A stretch of 64,000 nucleotides of DNA from Antedon mediterranea (lineage: Eukaryota; Echinodermata; Crinoidea; Comatulida; Antedonidae): NCBI RefSeq assembly GCF_964355755.1, contig NC_092679.1, positions 7,936,001 to 8,000,000 of the forward strand, in the 5' to 3' direction. The position numbers were made by a program, and so were the translations under genes. Below, piece by piece: positions 32,401-52,442 of the stretch (its first letter is position 1; the number at the start of each line of letters is the position of its first letter). The notes under the pieces are model-generated. The model was given only the letters and a program-made list of their open reading frames with translations. It was not told the DNA's origin and made no database searches.

Positions 32401-34415
32401 TGTGGTTAATGAGGGATTGTATCAATTAATCCTAACCATGGAGTAATGTATTAACCAAAGCAGACAACCTCAACGAACCAAGGTCGTCGTCGTGTCAGGT
32501 GGCTGAAGATGAGCACGCATCAGCTGATGATCTTGACGTCTTGAAAGTCAACCTCAACTGACCTTTCTCCAGTACGAATTCTAGCACATTCTTCATCATT
32601 TAAATTATTCGTTCCAATTATAAACATTAAACGAATCGTCTGTTGAACGTATTTAAATTATATTACATTATCATCTATCATACCGTATTCATTTCTGAAA
32701 TTATTATAATTTTTGTCAACAAATCTTCTTCAGCTGAGTACGAACATGGACCCAGTCGTGCTGTAGGCCTATGGAGTGTTTTGCATACGCCATTATTTGT
32801 GCTCTCTCAGATTTAGACATAGCAACGAATCATAAAGAAAGTTAACAATATCCTACTCACTTTTTAGACTAACATCACTCATTAAATCAAATTAAACACG
32901 ATTACGTTTTTTTTTTATTGACATTTTAAACTAAATAAAACTAAAGTAGGCACACAATGACTGTCCAGTTCAGACGCACTCAGTTCCGACCGCGGCAACA
33001 GGACTGCTAAGTATGCGCGTGACGAAAATGGTGGAGTGCACAGGCCTAGCCGGCCTAGGCTAATTTGTAGTTTGTTAACTAATTAAATCTACATTCCTAC
33101 ATAATTCGTTTTTATTTCTTAAATATATTGCAACAAGAATGATATAGATAGGCCTTCTGAAAACAGCCATATACTCACTTTTTGGGCTTTTTAGGATGAA
33201 TGGTGTCCTCTTGATTTGAAATTGACAGGGAAAAGAGATCGTCTGACGTTTTCAACAATCCTAGTGATTTGATTGGTCGAAAGTCATGCTGCTATTTTAA
33301 AGGTTGAACCGTGATATCAAAGAATATATATCACAAGAATGAGTATTCCGCGATTTTTGCATCAGAAATTTGTAACAGAACCGATCGAAACATTTATTTT
33401 CTTTAAATGTAACTACATAATTTCCAAGGGATATACATTTTTTATATTAGCTTTGTTTTGTTTTTATATCTTAATTTGAGACTCAAATGCAATAATATTT
33501 TAAATTCACTTGTTGCTAATTTATCAAAAGAGAGTTTTTAGTATAAGGTTATTTAATGTAGTTTTACAATGTTAGTAAGAGCAATGTTGCTATGTTTAAT
33601 ATCCTTTTATGTACGTTGTGTTGTCTTATTTCTGAATTTCTGTCTTGTTCGATGTAATAGTTATTTACCGTATGTATCTATATGAACTGTAATTATCCAA
33701 TCTTATATATTTTTTTTAATATATAGATGACAATAACGATTATTTGAGGATTGAGACCGAAGAAAGTCATATTGTCAACTTGCCAATGTATTAAACATCC
33801 CTTGCATCGTTTTTATGATCGTTATGTTTTTTTAGCTAGTTGCTATGGATAAAACTCAATCAATAAACAAGCATCAAATAATTATAGATAATATATTTAT
33901 TATATACTCTCATTGAGGAATACAATTACTATTGTTAAAATGAAAGATTTACTACGAGCACAGCGCTCTGAACAACAGTAGTAGTAACAGTACAGACACT
34001 ATAGACCTATAATTTTACTTTCAATGGATAATAGAGGGCGCAATTCAGCATTAGGTGTGATATAAGTACAGTACTGTATATAACAAATGAATAAAATAAA
34101 AATAAACTAATAACTAAGAATATTATAGAAAATAGGAAAGAAATGAGTCATTTGTACAAAATGGCAAATGTAAATGATGTATACTATTATTTCATATACT
34201 AAATTGGTTATGTTGAAATATTTTGTACATAATTTGTAAAAATCTAGAAATAATTGGAAAATGTATGGTCCACATGTCATCTAAATTAGAGTTAAAGGCT
34301 GGATATTACTTCATCAATTATCTACTAAAATATCAGAAACAGATTTTTTGATAACATTGGGTGAGGATAACACATAACACAAAACAATGTTTTTTTACAT
34401 AAAACATGATATGAA
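29434..34415. other. Intergenic region between ARHGAP11A and AP2S1
   Basis: The left part is the ARHGAP11A 3' UTR, with an AATAAA near 29603. A CpG-bearing patch at about 30560-30650 (CATGCGCGCGATG) and a (TGAA)n microsatellite at about 30683-30700 follow. A second CpG-bearing area with a CCAAT-type GATTGGTCG lies at about 32980-33300. Neither leads into a recognised coding exon. The right end should contain the AP2S1 3' UTR. No gene is called in these 5 kb. Confidence 0.4.
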
Positions 34416-36338
34416 TTATTCTAGTTGTTGCAGCTCCATTAACTGTTTAAGAACTTTGGTCTGACTTGTCTCTCGAATCTCACCGGCAAGAAACATCTCA
34501 TCAACAACTGAGTACACTTTGTAGAAATTAAAAACCAAGTCCAGCTCGCAGACATTGTGAAAATATTCATTCAGCACCTGTAAAGAACATCATCATTTAA
34601 ATGATTGCCAACATGCTTGTTTGTGCAGACAGAGTATCCATGTTTTCTACACATCACGCTATACTAATAAATAAATTCTATATTCATTATAACTATCATC
34701 TTTATTGTAAATAATCACTGTATATATCTTATATTTAATTTTTTTTTGTACAAAAATCACTGTACTACACGTTATTATGGTATCATTATTATTATGATTG
34801 CATACAGTTCACAAGATATGTTAAATAACTGTGTGATTTGGTCAAGCAGCCATGGGACTATAGTTGTTTGAAATGTAATACGTGTACACAAACCTACCTC
34901 AACAAAATTGTGTATAGCTTCTAAATAGGCTAAGTTATTATCGCTAACATCTACGCATATGCAGAAATATAATCCTGCATATCGACGATATACAATCTTG
35001 AAATTTCTGAACTGTAAAAAAAATAGAGAATTTATTGAAAACACAGTAATATTAATGTAACAATAATTGTTTATGAAAATGTGTATAATTTGTATAACTT
35101 GTCAAAATTATTCATCATACTTTATTTATTAGGTCATGCTGGATCATCATAAAACTTAAAGACCCATTCCCTACAAATTTTGATATTTTGTAAAAATAAT
35201 GCATATATATTATTTAAAGTCAAGTATCACTTAGAATCGACTTATTTTTCAAATTTTTAACCATTTAAAGAGGAAAAAAGTTATCGCAATAGGACCATAT
35301 ACTAATAGTATTTATTTTTACATTAAATGTAGTTTGTGACCCTTAAATTAGATCTAAAAAACGTAGGGAATGGGACTTTAAATAAATATAAATTCAATAT
35401 TCCACAAAACAAAAACAATTCCATACTTCAACAAAATTAGTATGTTTTGCATCTCTAACAGTGACAAGTGCATGGACTTCTTCAATTAACTTCTGCTTCT
35501 CATCATCATCAAAGGCCATGTACCATTTCGCCAGTCTTGTTTTTCCAGCACGATTTTGAATGAGAATAAACCGAATCTATAGAATATACAAGACAAGCAA
35601 AATTAACTCTTGGGAAACACACATTTAAAATTCTGTTATACATCAATTTTATACATTAATGGAGTGTTGAATAATAAATAATAATAATAGTAAAAAAAAG
35701 AACAATGAATGTCATTTTCTATTATTATTATTGTATATTGTATTTTATAATAAATAATGATGGAGTAAGAACAGTTTTCTGTTTCGGCTCATGCCAATTA
35801 CTTGCTCATGGCAAGATGAAATGTGAAATGTACTTTTAAGAACTTTTGCCGAATAAATATTATTATTATTATTAATTATTAGAACTTAGGTAGGGCCTAC
35901 TGTACTAACTACTAAGTCTATGCCTATATTATTATCATTATTATAGGCTAGTATTACTATTATACTAATACTACTGTATTACTAAACTTTGCAATGCATA
36001 AATACGAGACCATATTGAAATTCAATTAATTACATTTTCATAATCCTGACCGTGTAGGCCTAACAACAGGGTATCATGGCCACAATGACCTTTCCGTAAG
36101 AGCCGCAACAGACAGCAAATTTCCGTACGGCGTAAGGTGGTTTTCATAGAAGACGTACCACTCTACACGTCGGAAGGCCTACTAACTACTCTACTACTAT
36201 TCTAAAGGCCTACGTTATTAACTACTACTAGCCTTCTTAAATTATATTTTTAAAACTTATTTACTTATTAAAAAATTGTCAAGCTATCAAGAATATCAAA
36301 TGAACACCTTATAATAAGAACAATACATTATTTACCAT
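34416..36338 (-). CDS. AP2S1: AP-2 clathrin adaptor sigma subunit
   Basis: Four coding exons on the minus strand: 36336-36338 (the ATG alone), 35427-35576, 34898-35011 and 34416-34577, all with GT-AG junctions in phase 0. The product is 142 residues, the same length as human sigma-2, and nearly identical to it from [20 protein letters not shown] through [14 protein letters not shown] to [16 protein letters not shown]. It forms the small sigma chain of the AP-2 complex at the plasma membrane. There it packs against the alpha subunit and binds dileucine sorting signals during clathrin-mediated endocytosis. The Arg-rich N-terminal helix and the hydrophobic core of the longin-like fold are intact. 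Having only the start codon in exon 1 is unusual but is supported by the perfect phase match. Confidence 0.97.
35160..35377. mobile_element. 218-bp TTAA-flanked MITE in an AP2S1 intron
   Basis: The ends are AGACCCATTCCCTAC and its complement GTAGGGAATGGGACT. TTAA lies on both sides (35156-35159 and 35378-35381). A second, left-truncated copy lies at about 42410-42573 in a POLR1C intron. The two share AAAAAAGTTATC.CAATA and TTAAATTAGATCTAAAAA.CGTAGGGAATGG. It is non-coding and non-autonomous. Confidence 0.85.
35577..36335. other. First intron of AP2S1
   Basis: An AT-rich intron between the start-codon exon and exon 2, with several short ATT/AAT microsatellite runs near 35680-35880. No other feature is recognised. 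Confidence 0.5.
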
Positions 36339-36672
36339 TTTAACTAAAAAATTTACTTTTCGGGCGCCGCCGACGATAAGGTCACTCCTTCACTTTCACG
36401 CATAAATACAATAATACTTCCGGTTAGGGAAGTATAATGATTTATTCCATAGAATTATAATATGTATTCAGTCCAAAACTATTCTACAAAATTAAAATAT
36501 ACACATAGTACGTCAAACTCTGGTTATAATTCTTTAAATGAATTTTCGCCGTATATTCTATAACGCTGTACTGTACTATTAAACATTTATTTCCTAAATA
36601 TATAATGGAATCGGCCAGCTGTAATAATAAATAATTTATTTGTTGTGTAGTGTATACTCCACTATGTAGGAT
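36339..36672. promoter_or_regulatory. Likely ancestral bidirectional AP2S1/POLR1C promoter
   Basis: AP2S1 starts at its left edge on the minus strand. If the element at 36682-38236 is removed, POLR1C starts at its right edge on the plus strand. The start codons would then be only about 340 bp apart. Next to AP2S1 there is a CpG-bearing stretch (CGGGCGCCGCCGACG, about 36361) and an ETS-type CCGGAAGT on the minus strand at 36417-36424, which is common in TATA-less housekeeping promoters. Promoter function is inferred from position and motifs. Confidence 0.5.
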
Positions 36673-36681
36673 AAGAAGCAT

Positions 36682-38236
36682 GGTAATCTCTTCTTCCTCG
36701 GTCACATTTGCCTCATTTTAATATATGTCATCAAAGAACTTATAACACTCTTTGATGTCATGTAATATATGTTATTATGAATAATAAACAGTTTATTACG
36801 TCATACTATACAACCGGGATTTTACCTCTTGAATATTCATAAGATAAAGTTTCATACAACCGGCCGTGTGTGATGATACTCTAAATGTGTTACCATATTT
36901 TCCCGCATATTTTACCTTGATAGATTGGTATTCTTATAAGAAATACGTATAAAATAAGAATATCAGATACTTTAATTAATTTTAATCATAATTTTGGCTT
37001 TAATCTATACTTAATTGGTACATTATTTTTTAGTAGTTATAGACAGTTAGTAGTACCAGTAGTATAGTACTAGTGACTTTGCAGGTGTACTTGTTCCTGA
37101 AGAGTTTCTGGTTATTTTAATATTCTTTATTTTTTAACGAACAACTGTAAAAAACTGTCATGTTCTGATAGGCAAACAAAGTTATAAGCAAAAATATCCT
37201 CCAGGGTGGATTTAAAATGCAGTTTTAAAACGCAGTCTGTGTTAAAAATGGGGGTTTTTCAGATTCCATTTTGGCCCCCATTGGTTCAAAGAAGGCGAAT
37301 AATTAAATTTTTAATAATTCCCACTTCTAGTGAAAATTGTAGTATGGTTTTGTCTATGTGTATGTATGTGTGAAACAATTATCTTAAAAGATACTGTAGA
37401 TTTGTATTGTATTAGTTAACCCTACAGACCGATGAACTGTAGGAACCTTGTAGTATAGTCTGTTTATGATCTCTACATAAGAAAGTAAGTACTGTATTGT
37501 ATAAAGTTGAGATAAAGTATCCATGTCTATGTTAAAGACATTTGTGTGATGATACCAAATATAAATGATTAGGAATGTGACTCAAGTTTCTGTCTTCTAC
37601 AACAATTTTAAAGACCATGATGTCATTTAAATTCCATCTAAACTACTCATCCCAAATTTATGTGATGAGGTCATAATTAAGGCACCTTAAGGGTACCTTT
37701 TCTCTTTATTTAGTTATAGTTATAGCCTACCTAGAAAACATGACACTGTGTTTGATTTCAGTAATTGTTTAATTTCCCGAAGTAGCTATTTAAAAAAAAA
37801 TGTGTTTTTTATCTGACAAATCTTTTAGACTTGTAATAAAATCGTATTGAAGAAATACAGGTGTATTAGGTATAAGCCTAATCTGACTGAAAAGTTCAAT
37901 TTTTGGTGAATAATTATCTCACTATACCCTATATAATAGTGTTACCGTTGTCAGCAGCCCAAAATCAAATTTTGATGAATATGTGTTCACTTAATTTGGT
38001 AATTGTTTTCAAGAAATCACTTAAATTGAAAATGAAAAATCCAGTTTATTCATAATAATCATTACATAGTATTGCGGCACAATATTGTAGTGCAAGTGAA
38101 ACTTATGAATACTCAAGAGGTAAAATCCCAGTATAGTATGACGTAATCAACTGTTTATTATTCATGAGAGTGTTGTTCAGCCTAGCGTGACATATATTAA
38201 AATGAGGCAAATGTGACCGAGGAAGAAGAGATTACC
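36682..38236. mobile_element. 1.56 kb long-inverted-repeat element inserted at the POLR1C start codon
   Basis: The left end GGTAATCTCTTCTTCCTCGG and its complement at the right are the tips of long inverted repeats. These cover about 36682-36855 and 38097-38236, with gaps. Both sides carry the same 9-mer AAGAAGCAT (36673-36681 and 38237-38245). Long terminal repeats plus a 9-bp duplication are the pattern of Mutator-like elements. Both arms contain a TGACGTAAT-like CRE motif. No transposase frame is seen. The right duplication includes the first two bases of the POLR1C ATG, so the insertion displaced the old 5' UTR yet regenerated the start codon. The right arm must now supply the sequence just upstream of POLR1C. 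Confidence 0.88.
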
Positions 38237-38243
38237 AAGAAGC

Positions 38244-41200
38244 ATGGCGTCGAACAGTAACAACATCATGGACAAACGAATGGAAGAAATACGAACTAAA
38301 ATAGAGCTAAAAGAACACAGCATAGTTAATGTATGTTTAGCTTTTACTACATAAATAGACAAGAATAGGCCGAAGGCATAGACCTATATATTAATAAATA
38401 AGTCGTCGAATGTTCTTAAAAATCAATAAACACTGCATTGTTGACTGCCAACTAAATTCATGGATGGGTCATGACATTTATATTATGATTACACACATAA
38501 CTTTTATGTTGTTCATTGCAAGGATTATATTGTTTGACATTATTAGTGTAACAATATTTTGGGGCCATTGGGGCCATTTTAATTTAATAATTAATGAGTT
38601 TGTCCAAAAATTGGATTATTACTAATTAGAACAAAATTGTTTACTTGAAAAACTCAGGAACTGTAATTTCAAGAAAAAAAAATAAATTGGCTGCCAGCCA
38701 AATGAGTTTTTGGTTCAACTTAACCGTTTATTGATGAAAACATTATTCTTACAGTTTTTTTTTCTATAAAAGTGAACTTTATTAAAACTATAACAAATTG
38801 CCTATTCAAAAGTCTGATTTTATTAATCTTCATTTTTCATATTTTGTGAGTACAATACATCTTTAATTAATAATAATATTTTTTTCTTTCAATTGATTTC
38901 ATTTCAGGTAAACAGCACAGATTTTCCAGGAGGTTATACTGGTATTGATGATTCTTGGAACTTGGACAAGTTTGCAAAGGTAGATTAGTTTTAGTTAAGT
39001 GTTTAAAATGAAAAATGTATAAAATTAAAGATGTCATGATAGACATGTGTCATTAATTAATTTAAAAATTGTTTCAAAAGTTGAATATTGTTTCAAAAGT
39101 TGAATAGTTTTTAGTACTAATAAACATAATTTTGTTTTTATTGATAGAAATTTCGGATAGATGTTGTTGACATAAAAGACGATAGAATAGAATTTGATAT
39201 GGTTGGTGTGGATGCATCAGTTGCAAATGCATTTAGAAGAATATTGTTAGCAGAGGTAATCATTCTGTTTTAAGTATTGTTTTTTATGATTAAAGACTTC
39301 ATATGACAATAATTAACCTTGAAATTAACAACATTCTTTATTCAGATATCAACACATGTGCTCTACAATATATCCACCATGTTGCCTCTGCATTCAGATA
39401 TCAACACATATGCTCTACAATATATCCACCATGTTGCCTCTGTATTCAGATATCAACACATGTGCTCTACAATATATCCACCATGTTGCCTCTGTATTCA
39501 GATATCAACACATATGCTCTACAATATATCCACCATGTTGCCTCTGTATTCAGATATCAACACATGTTCTCTACAATATATCCACCATGTTGCCTCTGTA
39601 TTCAGATATCAACACATATGCTCTACAATATATCCACCATGTTGCCTCTGTATTCAGATATCAACACATGTGCTCTACAATATATCCACCATGTTGCCTC
39701 TGTATTCAGATATCAACACATGTGCTCTACAATATATCCACCATGTTGCCTCTGTATTCAGATATCAACACATGTTCTCTACAATATATCCACCATGTTG
39801 CCTCTGCCCCGGATAGAGGGTGATATCACTCTTTATACATGCAACATCTTTCCTTTTTTCAAAGACAAGCAAAAGTTATGTTCTCTTAACTCTGACCAAA
39901 CAAGCGAGTTAACTTATACTCGTAACAAATAAATATAAACCAAATAACATCTCAATATGAACACAATTTGTTTTTTTCTCTCTACAGTGTCTTTTTTTAA
40001 ACCAACTTAACTATATCTAACTAAACTAAACTGATTCGAAACTAATATTTAAACATAATCTTTAAGGTAACGTGGTTTCTTTCTGATTCTTGTGCTGCGT
40101 CTTGTATTGGTTGGAGTTTCAGTTGCCTGACTTGTACTTTGTACTTGTGTTTTATCTGTCTTGGAAGGCGTTCGATTGTGCTTGTGTGTGCGTGAAGTGG
40201 TACGATTGATAATAGCAAATGGTTCAGCGCTTAATTGAAGATGTCGTCGATTTCTGATGTAGTTTGCGCCACTTTCTATTTGTACTCTGTATGATCTACA
40301 ACTGACCATTTCTGTGACTCGTGCTTTCTTCCACTCTTTGCAATGTGGCTTAGGTTTCATTCTGACGGTGTCTCCTGGTTGGAGAGATGGTTCTTTTGCG
40401 CCATGGTCAAATAATTTTTTCTGCTGTCTCTGCTTCTTTTGTTTTTTCTCAACGATGTTCTCAGGGATATTTGGAGCAAGGTGTGAACTTCTAGGGCATT
40501 TTGACCAATGCATGTGATAAACGTAGCAACACGATATTGCATTGCCTGATTTTTTAAACCTGTTAGTAACTCGTACAATGTCCACAACTGCTTAAACATT
40601 TGCCAGTTTGTTTTCATATTTCCTTTTAAAGATATATTGGGAGGGAGAGGAACCCTAACATTCTTAATACCATAACCTGCAGGAGGTAAATTGCCATCCG
40701 GCGGTGGAAGTTCCTCATTGTCAGACATGTTTATAAAACTGGTAAAACACACTGATCTTAATCTAGGCCTAGATTGAAACTGAATTTAACAATGTATACT
40801 ATAAACTTACTTAATAGTACAGTATTAGTATATTACTACACTCGATACAACACAGGGCACTGCTTCCACACTACACAGCGTAACTGATAATACGTCTTAG
40901 GCCTATACCGCGTCAATAAATCAATCACAAAACTGCTTGATTGAGACAGCTACTAGTACTGCTGATCATGGAGGTATGATACTGATAGTGCTGGACGATC
41001 ACGCTAGATATCTCCGTAGCGTAGAGCGTTGCCTCTGCCCCGGATAGAGGGCGATATCACTCTTTATACATGCAACACATTCTAACATTTACATTTTTAT
41101 TTTCTGATAGAACCAACAACATTTTGTAGCCAAGTAAATTCAGGAGATAAAAGATTTCAATTTGCTAAAGTTGTTTATCACTAATTTCTTACTTCTAGTT

Positions 41201-43231
41201 ACCAACAATGGCTATTGAGAAAGTGTTTATATTGAACAATACATCGCTGATCCAAGATGAAGTATTAGCGCATCGACTTGGCCTCATTCCAATCAAAGCA
41301 GACCCTCGACTCTTTGAATATCAACAGGAAGGTAAGAATTGTATACAAAAGTAGTCCTTGATTCTAGACAATAACAACATAATACAAGTTGTATTGTTTT
41401 TACCAATAGAATGTTTTTCTTCATCTCCTGCAGATATGCATTTGAAAATTTGTAATTTAAACAATCATGAATATCCCTGAATTTCCTGACAGACTATAGA
41501 AATAATCATTATTTATACCCTAGTAACTTGTTTAGCCAAAATATTCATTCTGAAAATAGGTGATGATGAAGGAAGCCCTGAAGATACTGTTGAATTCAAT
41601 TTAAAGATAAAGTGCACACGAAATCCAAATGCACCCAAAGATGCAACCGATCCTGAAGAACTCTACAGAAATTGCAAAGGTAACTTGTGTAACAACATCC
41701 ATGATAAATAGTTATACTGAATTTTGCAATTTTGTAATACAGAGATAGTCCTAGGGTGACATCCTATTTTCCATACAAAAATACAGTATTAATAAAAAGT
41801 CCCAAGGTTAATAATTAAAATGTATTTATAGTATGGACAAAAGATATGAAATGGATTCCAAGAGGCAATCAGGAAGACTTGGTAAGTGGTATTTATGTAT
41901 AATTATCCTGTTTATTTAATCCTTTATTTATTGTTTCTAAAATTGTGACTGTATTTTTTAAAAATAATATAGTATTTTGAATTTTATGTATGTATTAATT
42001 ATACTGTTTTTCAAAGCTGTTAGTGGTAGTTGGTATAAATAAAACAAATAACGAGATACTTTTAATTTTATAGTATGGGCAAAATGCTTTTAAACCTGTA
42101 AATGATGATATCTTAATTGCAAAGTTGAGACCGGGTCAAGAAATTGATGTCAAGTTAAACTGTGTAAAAGGCATTGGCAAAGACCATGCTAAGTTTTCAC
42201 CTGTCGGTAATTACACTCTTACCTGCATTATTTAAGGTCACATGAATAAAAAAAAAATGGGTTAATTACAGAAAAACAAGGCCATATACATGGCTGCAGT
42301 CGCTTGCTCAAGTTAGTGTTTACCGACCGACCGACCTAACATAGTAAGCTGTAGAGTTGCACGCGACTAAAAACGAAAATATCAATCTGTGCTAAATGAA
42401 TATTGTGATTTATAGCAGGCCACTTAAATTATTAGAATCGATTTATTTTTCACATTTTTTAACCGTTTAAAGCAGAAAAAAGTTATCTCAATAAGACCAT
42501 ATAGTATTTATTTTAAATGTAGTTTGTGACCTTAAATTAGATCTAAAAAGCGTAGGGAATGGGACTTTGATAATAAAGATAATTTATTCTATCCAACATT
42601 GACTGTTGAATAATTTGTTTTTATTTTGTGAAAAACCTTTAGCCACTGCATCCTACAGAATGTTACCCGATGTATCACTCAATAGTGAAGTGACAGGAAC
42701 ATTAGCTGAAAGATTGGTGGCGTGCTTCTCAAAAAATGTTATGGAGATAAGAGAAATAGATGGTTAGTGTCAACTAGTGCACAAATTGTAATGTAAACAC
42801 AAATATTTCTTGGACAATTGACAAAATATTTTTGTATTAATTTCAGGTGTGAAACATGCAGTTGTAGTAAACCCTCGTCATGAAACTTGTAGCAGAGAAG
42901 TATTTAGACATGAGGTAAGGCGTTTACCAAGCAATCTTCTGAACTTATTTTCAACTTAATTTTGTAATGACTTTTTTTTTTTAGGATTTGAAGGATTTGG
43001 TTAAATTAACAAGAATTCGTGATCATTTTATTTGTAAGTATTAATATATTTTTGTTATTTATATAACTTGTAACATTTTTCCTGAATGAAATGGATAAGT
43101 TGTTTTCTTTAGTTTCAGTTGAGTCAACAGGAGCATTACCACCAAATGTCTTGGTTTCTGAAGCTATCAAAGTGTTGATGTCAAAGTGTAAGCAGTTTCT
43201 ATCTGAGCTTGACAGTGTTACCACATCATAA
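38244..43231 (+). CDS. POLR1C: RNA polymerases I and III shared subunit RPAC1
   Basis: Eleven exons: 38244-38330, 38908-38979, 39148-39255, 41199-41331, 41560-41679, 41832-41881, 42074-42206, 42643-42762, 42847-42914, 42985-43033 and 43113-43231. All have GT-AG introns and matching phases, giving 352 residues (human 346). The family's conserved stretches are present: [67 protein letters not shown] and [14 protein letters not shown]. It is the alpha-like (AC40) subunit that pairs with POLR1D in the assembly core of Pol I and Pol III, in nucleolus and nucleus. The first ATG lies at the edge of a transposable element. The N-terminal 30 residues are not conserved, so a later in-frame Met (for example the ninth residue) could also be used. 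An AATAAA lies near 43366. Confidence 0.96.
38331..38907. other. POLR1C intron 1 with a decayed TTAA-MITE end
   Basis: The intron includes, at about 38790-38866, a stretch ending in GAGTACAATACATCTTTAATT. This resembles the right end of the 509-bp MITE at 517-1025 and a similar stretch at 49840-49912. The rest is unremarkable. Confidence 0.4.
39341..39808 (+). repeat. 52-bp tandem repeat, nine copies
   Basis: Copies begin TTCAGATATCAACACAT at 39341, 39393, 39445, 39497, 39549, 39601, 39653, 39705 and 39757. They are nearly identical and vary mainly at CACATGTGCTC / CACATATGCTC / CACATGTTCTC. The unit has no stop codon in any forward frame and its length is not a multiple of three. So all three forward frames stay open, which makes long but spurious reading frames. 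It lies in POLR1C intron 3. Its last copy runs directly into a truncated LTR, sharing GTTGCCTCTG with it. Confidence 0.95.
40049..40490 (-). pseudogene. Gypsy integrase C-terminal fragment
   Basis: The frame holds the C-terminal integrase module of Ty3/Gypsy elements: [11 protein letters not shown], a Trp-Lys-Lys-Ala spacing, [10 protein letters not shown] and [11 protein letters not shown] Thr/Ser/Arg-rich tail follows. The catalytic core and zinc-binding region are absent. It is joined, in a different frame, to the gag-like piece upstream at about 40485-40495. That is the expected product of an internal deletion. Confidence 0.75.
40490..40728 (-). pseudogene. Gypsy gag N-terminal fragment
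   Basis: It starts at an ATG giving [20 protein letters not shown] and continues into a capsid-like segment: [20 protein letters not shown], with the W..F.Q.W..YE spacing common in Gypsy gag proteins. It breaks off after [11 protein letters not shown], where the sequence jumps to the integrase end. No zinc knuckle remains. The protein cannot function as encoded. Confidence 0.65.
42278..42368. mobile_element. 91-bp short element (AAGGCCA...CACGCGACT family)
   Basis: It starts AAGGCCATATACATGGCTGC and ends TAGAGTTGCACGCGACT. AAAAAC flanks it at 42272-42277 and 42369-42374. The interior contains ACCGACCGACCGACC. The same two ends bound the 6.5 kb insertion at 44732-51238, so this is a very short relative. 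Subterminal AGTCGC / GCGACT form an inverted repeat. It lies in a POLR1C intron. Confidence 0.65.
42410..42573. mobile_element. Truncated second copy of the AGACCCATTCCC MITE
   Basis: It aligns to the right two-thirds of the 218-bp MITE at 35160-35377 and ends GTAGGGAATGGGACTTTGA. The left terminal repeat is missing. Confidence 0.75.
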
Positions 43232-43719
43232 TATGTACAACAAATACTTCAAGTCTGTTCCTTGTTTCAAACTCTCTGAATTTTTTCATTTGCCTATTCT
43301 AAGATTGCTTATAATGAATACATCAACTACAATTCAAGACAGTTCATCTGATCACCGTGTTTAACAATAAAGCAAAGACCATAAATCTATTTTTAGTATT
43401 TCTTTTGCAAGCAACAACTTGATTGTTTACTATGCTATTTATGTTATTAAAAGATGAAAGAAAATACCATATTTTAAAGTTATAATCTGTTATTACTACC
43501 GTTATAATTTATACCATGGATATAAATAATGGCCAACGAGATGATAGCTAGGGGAAGGAAACCCCTAAATTAAACCTACTGAGCTAGCACTTCAGGAAAT
43601 ATATATTCCCTCGAACAAAATATCATTCCCTCAGGGATGTCAAATCTTATATTTAACCTCTAAGCAGTCAATATCTGTATAATAAAGTACGTACACAAAG
43701 ACTTTGGTGGTTACAGTAT
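43232..43719. other. POLR1C 3' UTR and spacer
   Basis: The 3' UTR carries ACAATAAAGCAAAG near 43366 as the likely polyadenylation signal. After that there is unique AT-rich DNA up to the LINE insertion. No gene is seen. Confidence 0.5.
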
Positions 43720-44879
43720 ACACTATTCAGAAAGAGCCAAATATGTTAAATGTAAATTGGCATGAAATAACTTCATATACAAATGTGAATGACGCTCTGC
43801 AGTTTTTTGAAGACAAGTTTTTACAAATTGTTAATAAACATGTACCTGGTTCGAAATAAAGATAACCCATGGCTCACAAAAAATGTAATACAGTATTACA
43901 AATGCGAAAACATGACTCAATGAAAAAAGAGCGAATAAAGAAAATTGTCCTCAATTATGGAACGAATACCGTGAATTAAAAAACAAAGTAAATTACGATA
44001 TTAGGAAATCAAAAAAGGATTATTTCTCTAAACAATTAAATACAAAAGATATATTGTACCATCTAAGAATAAAAAAAGTGTTATAAGTAGTATAAATACA
44101 ATAAATGGCCTTGAAACAGATTCTTACAAGATGGCTAATACTTTAAATGAGTTTTTTGCAAACATAGGACCTAACCTAGCTAAACAAATTCCTCAATTTA
44201 AAAGTAACCATGTAAATTATGAATACCCAAATAAGGTGAAGACAAAATAAATGTCACGTTTGTTGACGAAGAATATGTATACAAACAAATTTTACCATTA
44301 TCTGACAAAAAGGCTACAGGAACTGATGAAATTCCTGCTAAACTAATAAAATTAGCAATCAACTCAATTGTACAACCCATTACATTTTTAATTAATTTAT
44401 CTCTAAGAACCAGCGACTTCCCAAGTAAATGGAAAAATGCACGAATATGCCCAATTTTTTAAAATGGCGACCGAAGTGAACCATCTAACTACAGGCCAAT
44501 TTCTGTACTACCAATTTTATCGAAAATTATTGACCAACTCTATTCACATTCGCCAAACCCTAAATTATACAATCAACAATCTGGATTTAGGCCAAATTAC
44601 TCGACATCATCGGCATTAATAAATATAACTGAAGATTGGATTGACAGTATTGAAAATAGTAAAAATAGGACTAATAATGCTTGATCTCAAAAAAGCTTTC
44701 GACACTGTTAATCACCAGATACTAATAAAACAAGGCCAACAGCCATTAAGTCGCGTGCTACAATGCATAGTGATACCGGACCGACAGACAGAGAGACCGA
44801 CCGACCGACATAGTGAACTATACTGACCGAAATTACTGAAGATGTTGAAATGTTTAAAAACATTTATTTTTTTTAAATT

Positions 44880-45354
44880 TACACGTGCGTAGCCTGTCAC
44901 TTTCGACGTGCTCGTATAACGTAATTTCGAGTTGAAAAGTAAGTCAAGAAAACAGAAATCGGGCAAAAAGAGTGCGCAATAACATTTAACGCGCAGTGCG
45001 CGCGCAAAAATATGCGCACTCATGGCAATTTTGTAAACGCTTAAAATTGCCTGAAACGTACTCTAATTATTTCATCGAAAATAAATTTTGAAAATGTTAA
45101 GCGCGCGTACGCATGCGTTACATGCGCTACGCACGTAATTGTATTGCCATATGATGATTTATGCCCTGAAATTTATGAGTACCAAATTTTATTTAATTGT
45201 GATTCATGGTTGTGAAGATATGATTACAAACGTGATTTCGTTAAATCGTGCGTAGACCGCGTAATTTTTTATTGCGCACCGTGAAAACATAACCACATTG
45301 ATTCCTGGCCATAAGGAATATACTGTGAAAAATTGACCTAGCTAGATTAAACTG
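44880..45354 (-). repeat. Dispersed repeat, copy 2 of 2 (interrupted)
   Basis: Reverse-complement match to 11755-12275, with shared GCGTACGCATGCGTTA-like and ATTCCTGGCCATAAGGAAT stretches. The last part of the repeat (GATATCAAGATAA) is found at 51087-51099, on the far side of the 5.7 kb element. This shows where that element went in. Confidence 0.85.
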
Positions 45355-45379
45355 CCCAGTGGGCACAGAACATAATTTC

Positions 45380-47560
45380 AACGTTGAATCAACGTTGAAA
45401 TATAGTTGATTTGTTGAAATCATGTTGTCAGCGTATTTCAAACGTTGAATCAACGTTGAAATAACATTTTTTCCCTAACTATATTTTTTACGATTATTAA
45501 TAAACATTGAATCAACGTTGAAATAACATTTTCTTTTCAATAGAATGTTTATGTTCATTTATCAATGTTAATCAAATGTTGAAATAACATTGTCTTTTTA
45601 ACTAGTAATTTACGTTAATTTATAAATGTTGATTTAACGTTGAAATAACATCGTCTTTCTAACAAATGTTTTTTGTTAATTTTTCAATGTTGATCCAACG
45701 TTGAAATAACATTGTTTTTCTAACAAATGTTTTACGTTAATTTATAAATGTTGATTCAACGTTGAAATAACATTGTGTTTTTAACTAGAAATTTACGTTA
45801 ATTTATCAATGTTGATCCAACGTTAAAATAACATTGTCCTTCTAACTAGTAATTTACGTTAATTTATCAATGTTGATTTAACGTTGAAATAACATTGTCT
45901 TTCTAACTAGAAATTTACGTTAATTTATCAATGTTGATCCAACGTTGAAATAACATTGTATTTTTAACTAGAAACTTACGTTAATTTATCAATGTTGATC
46001 CAACGTTGAAATAACCTTGTATTTTTAACTAGAAATTTACGTTAATTTATCAATGTTGATCCAACGTTGAAATAACATTGTATTTTTAACTAGAAATTTA
46101 CATTTTATTATCAATGTTGATCCAACGTTGAAATAACATTGTCTTTCGAACTAGAAATTTACGTTAATTTATCAATGTTGATCCAACGTTGAAATAACAT
46201 TGTCTTTCTAACTAGTAATTTAAGTTAATTTATCAATGTTGATCCAACGTTGAAATAACATTGTCTTTCTAACTAGTAATTTACGTTAATTTATCAATGT
46301 TGATCCAACGTTAAAATCACATTGTATTTTTAACTAGAAATTTACGTTAATTTATTAATGTTGATCCAACGTTGAAATAACATTGTATTTTTAACTAGTA
46401 ATTTACGTTAATTTATCAATGTTGATCCAACGTTGAAATAACATTGTATTTTTAACTAGTAATTTACGTTAATTTATCAATGTTGATCCAACGTTGAAAT
46501 AACATTGTATTTTTAACTAGAAATTTACGTTAATTTATTAATGTTGATCCAACGTTGAAATAACATTGTCTTTCTAACTAGTAATTTACGTTAATTTATC
46601 AATGTTGATCCAACGTTAAAATCACATTGTATTTTTAACTAGAAATTTACGTTAATTTATCAATGTTGATCCAACGTTGAAATAACATTGTATTTTTAAC
46701 TAGTAATTTACGTTAATTTATCAATGTTGATCCAACGTTAAAATCACATTGTATTTTTAACTAGAAATTTACGTTAATTTATCAATGTTGATCCAACGTT
46801 GAAATAACATTGTATTTTTAACTAGTAATTTACGTTAATTTATCAATGTTGATCCAACGTTGAAATAACATTGTATTTTTAACTAGTAATTTATGTTAAT
46901 TTATCAATGTTGATCCAACGTTGAAATAACATTGTATTTTTAACTAGAAATTTACGTTAATTTATTAATGTTGATCCAACGTTGAAATAACATTGTATTT
47001 TTAACTAGAAATTTACGTTAATTTATTAATGTTGATCCAACGTTAAAATAACATTGTCTTTCTAACTAGTAATTTACGTTAATTTATCAATGTTGATCAA
47101 CGTTGAAATAACATTGTATTTTTAACTAGTAATTTACGTTAATTTATCAATGTTTATACAACGTTGAAATAACATTGTCTTTATATCTAAAAATTTACGT
47201 TAATTTATCAATGTTGATCCAACGTTGAAATAACATTGTATTTTTAACAAGAAATTTACGTTAATTTATCAATGTTGATCCAACGTTGCAATAACATTGT
47301 ATTTTTAACTAGAAATTTACGTTAATTTATCAATGTTGATCCAACGTTGAAATATAACATTGTATTTCTAACTAGTAATTTACGTTAATTTATCAATGTT
47401 GGTCCAACGTTGAAATAACATTGTATTTTTAACAAGAAATTTACGTTAATTTATCAATGTTGCTCCAACGTTGAAATAACATTGTCTTTCTAACTAGTAA
47501 TTTACGTTAATTTATCAATATTGATCCAACGTTGAAATAACATTGTATTTCTAACTAGTA
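45380..47560 (+). repeat. 61-bp tandem repeat, about 35 copies
   Basis: The unit contains TTTTTAACTAGAAATTTACG and then TTATCAATGTTGATCCAACG before TTGAAATAACATTG. The 61-bp spacing was checked at 45692, 45753 and 45814. Copies near the left edge are more diverged (AATCAACGTTGAAAT) and those in the middle almost identical, as expected for unequal exchange. It is non-coding. Confidence 0.95.
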
Positions 47561-47569
47561 ATTTTTTTC

Positions 47570-49050
47570 AAACAATTATTATTTTTGTTTTTCAATGTTA
47601 TTCCAACGTTATTTATAACGTTGAAATCCAATTGTCATTTTCAAATGACATGTTTTCACGTTGAAAAACTCTTGAAATTATGTTGTTTTTTCAAACAATT
47701 ATTATTTTTGTTTTTCAATGTTAATTAAACGTTAAATTAAAGATAAATTCTATTTAATACTTTGGTTAAAATGACATGTTTTTAACGTTTAATATTAAAT
47801 AATATGTGTTTAAGTGCGTTGCCATTGATGTTTCAAAGTTAAATTAACATTAGATTTCAGTTGGCGGTTTATTTTATCATCCTTTATTGTAAAACAAATG
47901 ATTATTGGTTATTTAGGAATTTTAGATTGGCAAATATTATTGTCTCTGTATAATACAAAAATGTTCTAGAAGTTGTGTTGAAAATTGAATGATCCTTTCA
48001 TGCAAGATCAAATTTCATAAGAATAGATAGGCCCACGAGCTTGTCATTGGTTAGTTTCGTTTTGATAAAATTTTGAAACTGGTGTCGGTAATTTCAGTTA
48101 CTTCGACGTAGGCTAGGCCTACAGTAGTAGTGGTGTGTAGAAAAAAAAGGCTCATCATTGAAATTGTCAAATAAGTATGTTTTCAGGTAGGAAAACAATC
48201 TTTTTTATTTGTAATCTACTAATTTATAAGCTTGACTATTTTACCCTTATCAATAGCTAGCCTCTAGTCTAGTAGGCCACACTCACATGCATAGCTAGCT
48301 AGGCTATAGGTAGGCTAGGCAGGCTGCCAAACTGATGAACTGAATTCACTCACTAGGCCTAGTGGAAGCATTTAGTATCATGCCTGTCAATGGCAAACAT
48401 TTGCCTTGCCAAGGATAACTACAGTACTGTACTTATTATGGTTATAAAATGGTATGAACTATTAGGCCTTTAGTTCAATACTTTCTTTATTTATCCAAAA
48501 GTATACATAAATATAACATTATAATATATAATTAGTTGGCCTAGGCCCTAGCTAGCTTTCTGCTAGGCTTTCTACAGTAGCTGCTAATGCTATTATTAGT
48601 ATTATAGTATACAAACACATGCTAGCCTAGTAGGACGGCTATTTGTTGAACTTACTCGCTTTCTTTATTTCAGATTGTAATGTAGGCCTAGCTAAGGCCC
48701 TTAGGCCTATGCCTAGCTAGAGTACAAAATAATGAAGTACATGTAGGCCTATTCTCTTTTCTATGTGAATCAAACGAGAAAAATCTAATGGATGATCAAT
48801 ATTTTTATATACAAAAGGTTGGTATTTATAGTTCTTAACTTTAATATTGAATTGAATAAATTGTGGCCTAGGCCTAGTTAGTCGTCGCGCGGGGGAGAGA
48901 GCGATGGATGAAACTTGGCCTAGGCCATACATGAATTAATAATTACGCCACGCGTTAAAATAATTATTATGATATTGATAAGAATCAGCTTGCGTATTTC
49001 AAGAAATGTACGAAAATGAATAACGTAGCGTTGCGACACGGACTTCTTCC
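47570..49050. other. Central non-coding part of the 5.7 kb element
   Basis: Transitional ACGTT-rich sequence comes first (to about 47850), then AT-rich DNA with many TAGGCCTA and CTAGCTAG runs. An acceptor-like TTTATTTCAG occurs near 48665, but no convincing exon follows. No gene is recognised. Confidence 0.4.
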
Positions 49051-49151
49051 GAACAGTTCTGGTTTTTTTTTTCCGCTTGCGTTGCGTTTACGTCCTAGCT
49101 TTACGTTCTAGTGGGAACCAAGCTTTACAGTATTAAAATGATCCATCGCTG

Positions 49152-49336
49152 TAAAGCTTGGTTCCCACTAGAACGTAACGCAAGGACGTAAACGCAACGC
49201 AAGCGTTTTAACCAGTAACAAGCGAAGTTATAGACAGTTAGCAATCACAAGCGAATAAGCCATCGCTTGTGATTGGTCAATTCACTTGCGTTGCGTTACG
49301 TCCTTGTGTTGCGTCGCTAGTGGGAACCACGCTTTA
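49152..49336. mobile_element. 185-bp palindromic MITE (CTTGGTTCCCACTAG family)
   Basis: The left end TAAAGCTTGGTTCCCACTAG and the right end CTAGTGGGAACCACGCTTTA are complementary over about 40 bp, including ACGTAACGCAAGGACGTAA-like sequence. An extra single arm of the same family lies next to it at about 49052-49129 in opposite orientation. Nearly the whole unit can fold into a hairpin. Confidence 0.8.
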
Positions 49337-49973
49337 GTCTGTTGTAGACAAAAATAGAGTCGCCGATTACCTCGCTCTGGGCATGCGCAATAGCGTGTCG
49401 GATTCCCTAACGCTGGGCATTTGAGTTACGGTGCCGGAATCCTATAATCACGGCGTAAATATTAATACAGTGTTGCAATATTATTTACATAAATTTAATT
49501 GATTGCATATTTTACGTGTAAGTGTGAAATGATGTTCTGAATTCAATTTTTGTTTATGTACAGTATGATTTTTTAACACTGTGTTAAAGATATAATTGAA
49601 CTGAACAATTTTTTTTTAATGTTTTGTTGAATATGATGCCGTCACTGTAGAGTTGTTCACTTTGACCAAAAAATTAGATTTTAAAAAATGCATTTGTACC
49701 TGAAAAGGAGGACAATTTAAACAAACAATTGGTTTTTGGTTAAATGTACTGTTTATTTTGTATTTTTGTTAAGTGAAATCTTTATTGTTTTTGTTTATTT
49801 TCTACGGCAAGTGAATATCTAAATTGTTAAAATTGCAAAATGCCAAGGTATTCAAAGTATGATTGTATTAATCTTCATTGTTCCTGTTTTTTGGGGACAA
49901 TAAATCTTTCAATTAATTTTTTACTGTATTATTTTTGTTTAAAACTACAGTAACTTGATTGAATTTGTTTCAG

Positions 49974-50132
49974 GTTTGGAAAAATAATATTGCCACACTT
50001 TTGGAAACCATAGGACAATGTCAACACAGGAATCGAGGCAACTGTTTATTGACTAATCGGAACAATGCAATTACAGTAATGTGTTATTGCCATCATTTGG
50101 ACTTCTGCAACATTAGCACAAGGCACCTGTGA
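49974..50132 (+). CDS. Exon-like open frame inside the 5.7 kb element
   Basis: After a good acceptor (TTGAATTTGTTTCAG) there is a 52-codon frame starting VWKNNIATLLETIGQCQHRN and ending at TGA. It is Cys/His/Asn-rich in its second half (MCYCHHLDFCN). No family is recognised and no partner exon was found upstream. It could be a captured terminal exon, a relic of the parent element's gene, or chance. Confidence 0.2.
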   Translation, partial: VWKNNIATLLETIGQCQHRNRGNCLLTNRNNAITVMCYCHHLDFCNISTRHL

Positions 50133-50499
50133 CGTGTGTTGTATTTATTGTGTTTTACTGTAATCAGCCAATATTTATAGTTATTCAATCATGTTAGTTG
50201 GCAAACATATTACAAACTGGTTATTATTATATTTTTTATACTTAACATTGGTACCTGAGAACTGTCAGTGAGGATGTACATTATTTGATTGTTGCTTGGA
50301 TTTTGCCTGATGATTTGATAACACCTGATTAAATGTTATTTTATGTTTTTATAGAAATTAAAGATTAGTGAGATATACAGTATTTATAAAATGTCTCTAT
50401 TGATGGATTCTGCGACGTAACAGTAACTTTACTACCAACTACTTTAAAACCGTTGATTCAAATTGGATATAGTAATTCAACAAATCAATTACCATTGAA

Positions 50500-51050
50500 A
50501 ATATGCAACGTTGATAATTTCTATGTTGATTCAACGTTGACATTTACGTTGAGGGAAACTTTCATTTTCAACCATTTTTTCAACGTTACCTATTTTAACG
50601 TTGTTTCAACGTTGATAATTTCTATGTTGATTCAACGTTGACATTTACGTTGAGGCAAACTTTCATTTTCAACCATTTTTTCAACGTTATTTCAACGTTA
50701 CCTATTTTAACGTTGTTTCAACGTTGATAATTTCTATGTTGATTCAACGTTGACATTTAAGTTGAGGCAAACTTTCATTTTCAACCATTTTTTCAACGTT
50801 AATTCAACGTTACTTATTTTAACGTTGTTTCAACGTTGATAATTTCTATGTTGATTCAACGTTGACATTTACGTTGAGGCAAACTTTCATTTTCAACCAT
50901 TTTTTCAACGTTATTTCAACGTTACTTATTTTAACGTTGTTTCAACGTTGATAATTTCTATGTTGATTCAACGTTGACATTTACGTTGAGGCAAACTTTC
51001 ATTTTCAACCACTTTTTCAACGTTATTTCAACGTTTGCAGATAACGTTGA
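50500..51050 (+). repeat. 112-bp tandem repeat, five copies
   Basis: Units begin GATAATTTCTATGTTGATTC at 50513, 50614, 50726, 50838 and 50950. The first is about 11 bp shorter than the others. Each carries AACGTTGACATTTACGTTGA and CAACCATTTTTTCAACGTTA. The repeat shares the CAACGTTGA core with the 61-bp array at the other end of the element but is otherwise different. Confidence 0.92.
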
Positions 51051-52442
51051 ATTAACGTTAATTCAACCAATTTTTGCCCACTGGGTGATATCAAGATAAG
51101 GACAGAAAGCGATAAAACGCATAGTGATACCGGACCGACCGACCGACCGACCGACCGACCGACCGACCGCCGACAGACAGACAGACAGACCGACCGACCG
51201 ACCGACATAGTGAACTATAGAGTCGCTTCCACGCGACTAAAACCTACACAATTTTAATTTTGCTAATCATGTTATCAAATGGTTTGAAAATTATTTAACA
51301 AATCGTACACATATTACTAATATTAACAATGTTGATTCGGTAAAGTCTAATAGTGTTTGTGGAATCCCTCAGGGATCAATATTAGGGCCCCTTCTATTTA
51401 TCATGTATATTAATGATCTACCTAACTCAGTTTCCCATAGCACATGTACGCAGATGACACTGCGTTATATTATGCATCTAAAGACATACACGATATAATA
51501 AGCAAAGTAAATACTGATCTAAAACATGTACAACTATGGTTAGCAAGTAACAAATTAAGTCTAAACGTTAAAAAGACTGAATATATGATTTTAGGAACAC
51601 ATCAAAAATTAAATAAATTGATTAACATGGATATTAATATTAATATAGACGGTACAAAACTTGAAAAAGTAAATAACTGTAAACATTTAGGTGTCATTAT
51701 CGATGAAAATTTAAAATGGCATAAACAATTAGATCAGGTGAAAAATAAAGTAATATCAGGTCTGTACTATCTAAAAAAAATGCAGCAATATTTTCCCTCA
51801 AAATATTCAATCATTAATGTACAAATCTATCATAGTAAGCCCACCATTTTGACTACTGCAATGTAGTATGGGGTCGTTGTAACCAAACCCTCAAATATAA
51901 ACTCCAATTACTCCAAAATAGAGCGGCTAAAATAATTACACATACATCTAGGTATGACTCTAGCTCACAGGCGCTCAAAGATTTAAATTGGCCTAATTTA
52001 GAAGAAAAACAATATTACAACGAAGCAGTCACAATGTATAAAATAATGAATAACTTGACACCATCCTACTTAAGAAACAGATTCTATGAACGCAAACAAA
52101 CATATAATACTAGATCAAAAGATATTCTAAGTTTACATAAGGCACACTGAGTATAAAAATAAAAAGAAAAGTTTCTCGTTTTCTGGCGCAAAGCTATGGA
52201 ATAGTTTAAATGATATAGGCCTAAACTCAAATGCAATTACAGCTCCTAATTATATACATATATCTAAATTATAAATGACCAAAGATAAAATATACTTGAA
52301 ACTCTATATTTTTCATGAAATCTTTTTTGTTGTTGTTGTTTTTGTACTGTAAATTATAACTTGTGTAATAGTATAAATGTGTTGCATCCGTTTTTAAATA
52401 AAGTTGTTATTATAGCCTGTAACACTCTATTCAGAAAGAGCC

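Follow-up and report, generated by a model that had tools for sequence, protein, structure and literature searches.

A non-autonomous DNA transposon inserted with a target duplication at the start codon of POLR1C in Antedon mediterranea

Two kinds of event in which a transposon takes over the start of a neighbouring transcript are well documented: promoters that read outward from transposon ends (PMC4287451, a review that credits the outward promoter of maize Mu1 to Barkan and Martienssen 1991), and transcription starts that have moved into MITEs of the 5′ UTR, as in the rice gene OsPT1 (PMC12902297). The OsPT1 MITE, a Harbinger-type element, sits hundreds of bases away from the ATG, and 5′ RACE proved the displaced start. 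Among cut-and-paste transposons, the maize Mu elements of the Mutator superfamily are marked by 9-bp target duplications, long inverted ends and insertion near the ATG at gene 5′ ends (PMC2774946), while the Merlin superfamily is defined by terminal GG, inverted ends of 24-462 bp and duplications of 8 or 9 bp (PMC8101967).

The locus described here lies in a window of 64 kb (the whole stretch of DNA analysed, C10:7936001-8000000), whose genes are animal-like, and was compared with the complete assembly (354 Mb in 18 contigs). Like the OsPT1 MITE, its transposon is a non-autonomous inverted-repeat element in the 5′ region of a gene whose start codon is untouched. Unlike it, the element abuts the ATG itself and, in contrast to the RNA evidence for OsPT1 and to the established promoter of Mu1, an outward promoter at its end is a candidate. 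The gene concerned, POLR1C, encodes a core subunit of RNA polymerases I and III that is essential in both yeast and vertebrates. Most insertions into the 5′ end of an essential gene do not persist, and this one is unusual in where it lies, on the start codon of a gene for a core polymerase subunit and within a 343-bp spacer between two genes.

The insertion site and its junctions

POLR1C occupies positions 38244-43231 of the forward strand and is modelled as 11 exons encoding 353 amino acids, with GT/AG borders and no stop. In this model exon 1 (38244-38330, same strand) begins with the first in-frame ATG at 38244-38246. The first 89 residues match human RPAC1 (E 1e-26), the whole protein matches the Pfam families RNA_pol_L and RNA_pol_A_bac, and the N-terminal part has a single location in the genome. 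A second in-frame ATG, at codon 9 (38268), gives the gene a fallback start, since A occupies -3 and G occupies +4 around both ATGs. Other mobile DNA is found nearby. The region 39335-41077, intron 3, is a second mobile-element insertion within POLR1C; about nine tandem copies of a 52-bp unit lie there beside a reverse-strand Gypsy-like ORF recognised by eye, and a 50-bp sequence has two copies that are 98% identical at a distance of 1231 bp. Downstream of the gene, 43686-52274 holds pieces of a LINE-like reverse transcriptase ORF, also recognised by eye.

On the other side, on the reverse strand, lies AP2S1. Its likely exon 1 (36336-36338) consists of an ATG followed by a GTAAAT donor, and its exon 2 (35428-35576) starts after an AG at 35576 and matches the small chain of clathrin adaptors (Pfam Clat_adaptor_s, E 2.1e-16). 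The two genes are thus arranged head to head, with start codons about 343 bp apart before the insertion and 1.9 kb apart now. Because of this layout, the ancestral spacer (36339-36681, 343 bp, unstranded) is inferred to have served both genes, as a presumed two-gene promoter region; no paper on the AP2S1-POLR1C gene pair was found in the literature. The spacer is present once in the genome, and its CpG observed/expected ratio is 1.57, against 0.78 for the window. The 100 bp beside AP2S1 contain seven CpG (top 5% of the window) and the window's only CTTCCGG, at 36417, while the 100 bp beside POLR1C contain one CpG.

Between the spacer and POLR1C stands the element (36682-38236, unstranded), 1555 bp long with the ends GGTAATCTCTTC...GAAGAGATTACC. 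Its termini, GGTAATCTCTTCTTCCTC... and ...GAGGAAGAAGAGATTACC, form inverted repeats that are perfect for about 50 bp (arms at 36681-36730 and 38188-38237) and continue imperfectly to about 160 bp. The sequence-only reading had described long inverted repeats bounded by one and the same 9-mer, the right copy of which supplies the first two bases of the POLR1C ATG, and both statements hold: AAGAAGCAT lies directly outside the perfect arms at 36673-36681 and 38237-38245 (both unstranded, from the sequence and a boundary scan), and the right copy runs into the start codon, its last two bases being the A and T of the ATG. The chance of a 9/9 match at a fixed boundary is about 1e-5. The ORF list contains no frame above 55 amino acids wholly within the element, and no Rfam family was found in 34000-39500. 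The structure is that of a TIR-type non-autonomous DNA transposon inserted with target duplication at the POLR1C ATG. Two internal peculiarities were observed besides. At 36725-36776 the left arm carries an extra segment of about 48 bp with a hairpin (TATATGTCATCAAAGA / TCTTTGATGTCATGTAATATA), absent from every other aligned arm. A 79-bp segment at 37608-37686 has some 15 additional matches (78-80% identity) at places where the element ends are missing, and so may be part of a different repeat family.

The insertion left different sequences at its two borders. At the right junction, AAGAAGCAT is followed by GGCG and both the ATG and the protein are intact. A 9-bp staggered cut copies the target on both sides, so this junction necessarily keeps the ATG; the earlier description of the insertion as regenerating the start codon is right in that the codon was kept, but this follows automatically from the duplication. 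The first base of the element is G, by which the left junction spells a second ATG (36680-36682), which opens an upstream ORF of 13 codons, MVISSSSVTFASF; this junction also forms the donor-like ATG|GTAATC. As had been claimed, the ancestral 5′ flank ending GGATAAGAAGCAT is displaced by 1.56 kb from the POLR1C ATG and now adjoins AP2S1, which the sequence and the AP2S1 exons bear out. An assembly error that joined a repeat to POLR1C is highly improbable. The element does belong to a repeat family, which could invite such an error, but this copy is distinct from all others (its best relative is 87% identical over 1.3 kb), the right junction occurs once in the genome, and misassembly does not produce a clean 9-bp duplication flanking the element on both sides, such as other copies also have.

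The transposon family and its affinities

Apart from its best relative, the element has about a dozen others in its own genome. The 18-bp element end was found at 35 genomic places with at most one mismatch, against none for the reversed control; a 14-bp end pattern was dropped, since its 188 matches were too near the background of 139 for the control. The terminal inverted repeats are common to the dispersed copies, and every copy read is non-autonomous. Family copies with two clear ends carry their own 9-bp duplications, constant in length and differing in sequence, which confirms the earlier view of the locus as a transposon insertion. These are GTACAATGC, GTTGTAGTA, TTTCTGCGC, CTTTTGATC, GTTTGATAT, GATTAATAT and GTCGACACG/GTCGACATG, together with AACATAAAC at copy L040, ATATAAAAC/ATGTAAAAC at L066 and TCATCACAC at L067. 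Copy L014 is damaged at its right end and its duplication, GACGTATAT, is recognisable in part only; L015 has no target duplication at its ends. Five short elements (L021-L024 and L067, about 260-440 bp), which share the terminal 30-65 bp and show 9-bp duplications in several cases, form by these sequence features a related MITE subfamily.

Three long copies were considered as autonomous elements and rejected. The two ORFs of about 306 amino acids in the 6.7-kb copy L040 are part of a different repeat nested inside it, which lacks these ends in its other copies. They match no Pfam family, one sub-threshold match apart, and the first has no convincing solved relative. This nested protein family (L040:3444-5217), with 121 genome matches, some in frames above 1500 amino acids, and no Pfam family, looks like an abundant unnamed mobile element. 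The 6.25-kb copy L066 likewise contains other nested repeats, and a 3.3-kb copy on contig C6 has no ORF above 95 amino acids.

Judged by its ends and duplications, the element fits a Mutator- or Merlin-like superfamily. It shares with maize Mu the 9-bp duplications, the long inverted ends, the non-autonomous copies and an insertion at the 5′ end of a gene near the ATG, and with Merlin the terminal GG, inverted ends within 24-462 bp and duplications of 9 bp. Unlike in maize, no Mutator transposase is linked to the family among the loci read: the genome has 36 MULE matches, and none of those read, a minority, lies between the element's ends. Two MULE-domain matches on C6, 6-8 kb from family copies, were rejected as a linked transposase, neither being inside a copy. 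As for Merlin, there are 11 matches to Merlin-type (IS1595-type) transposases, and at the eight read the element's ends do not occur within about 1.5 kb. No terminal repeats with duplications were found at the MULE and Merlin loci read.

Among the duplicated target sites, G at position 1 or C at position 9 is over-represented (12/22 half sites, P ~1e-4 or less), and the preference of maize Mu for S W at the outer ends of the duplication appears in 11 of 22 half sites, with P ~0.003-0.005 on few sites. The POLR1C target departs from the first preference and does not match the second. Maize Mu inserts at the 5′ ends of genes, whereas one copy of the present family, L016, adjoins a LINE endonuclease ORF.

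Transcription of POLR1C after the insertion

The sequence is best explained by the following course of events. A non-autonomous cut-and-paste transposon inserted recently at the boundary of the POLR1C 5′ UTR and start codon, inside the head-to-head spacer with AP2S1. With the target duplicated, the right copy preserved the ATG and coding sequence, while the presumed old promoter region remained with AP2S1. POLR1C is thus separated from the spacer it shared with AP2S1 and probably starts its message in another way, perhaps from the element itself. The sequence-only reading had proposed that the promoter or 5′ UTR was replaced by the right arm or now runs through it, and either may hold. As the subunit is essential, POLR1C is presumably still made, and carriers of the insertion allele may initiate its transcripts within the right arm or immediately next to it. 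If initiation took place downstream of about 38216, within the duplication or the final 20 bp of the element, the leader would be very short and free of the element's ATGs.

We put the odds of initiation within or next to the right arm at about even. Such a start is preferred to read-through with splicing and to a weakened allele for its short leader without upstream ATG; if transcription began at the old promoter, the leader, left unspliced, would be burdened with 36 upstream ATGs, 35 in the element and one at the left junction. The right arm (38100-38236, forward strand), taken as a candidate promoter region, was compared in an alignment of 20 family ends. It contains the CRE-like TGACGTAA, 98 bp before the arm end and about 105 bp before the ATG, and the TATA-like TATATTAAAA, about 42-51 bp before the ATG. 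The sequence-only reading had pointed to the CRE-like motif, which is indeed present directly upstream of the gene; it was found in 13/20 of the family arms examined, and the TATA-like motif is similarly common. Both motifs are family-wide and so arrived with the element; TGACGTAA is a family feature and no adaptation at POLR1C. As a TATA box, moreover, TATATTAAAA is poor, and the 64-kb window has 19 occurrences of TATATTAA by itself. A bacterial promoter scan of the region was disregarded as meaningless for an animal gene. The right arm differs from the family majority at one of 137 sites, and its private changes (1/122) do not differ from those of the interior (8/787) in a way that would indicate selection. 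The family-wide distribution of the motifs and the lack of any sign of selection at the POLR1C site count against a start in the right arm, as may a poor expression of the insertion allele, if it is polymorphic.

It is rather unlikely, in our estimate, that POLR1C is still transcribed from the old promoter on the AP2S1 side, the element then being spliced out for the most part as an intron of the 5′ UTR, with the left-junction donor (36683) paired, for instance, with acceptors that lie within it. The junction donor scores 7.7, inside the range of the POLR1C donors (6.7-10.8), exon 3 of the gene itself uses a GTAATC donor, and acceptor-like sites are present at 37718 (9.0) and 37760 (7.1). Yet splicing to these acceptors would leave 10 and 9 upstream ATGs, respectively, before the start codon, the scores come from a small matrix of 11 donors and 10 acceptors, and sites of this kind abound in AT-rich DNA.

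The age of the insertion bears on a further explanation. Counted at the sites on which the other aligned copies are unanimous, the POLR1C copy has 9 private substitutions in 954 (0.9%), among the lower values of the family; this is an upper bound on change after insertion, as mutations of the source copy are included. By this measure the copy looks young, and with only about 0.9% private substitutions the insertion could plausibly be polymorphic, as the sequence-only reading had suggested. It could then be a young, weakened allele, the individual or species relying on an empty-site allele for normal POLR1C expression. The low private divergence, the intact target duplication and the position at the start codon of a presumed essential gene all speak for this, but POLR1C remains open, and the assembly contains no second spacer and no empty site (expected as GGATAAGAAGCATGGCG, searched with at most 3 mismatches), though a single assembled haplotype would hide it. 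We regard this explanation as unlikely.

Returning to a start in or beside the right arm, a stronger version can be put forward only tentatively: a transposon end may recently have become the sole promoter of single-copy POLR1C, beside a CRE-like site and uncoupled from AP2S1, in an allele possibly still segregating. Young and precise as it is, the insertion amounts to a natural experiment: how much promoter does a housekeeping gene need, and can a transposon end replace a promoter at once?
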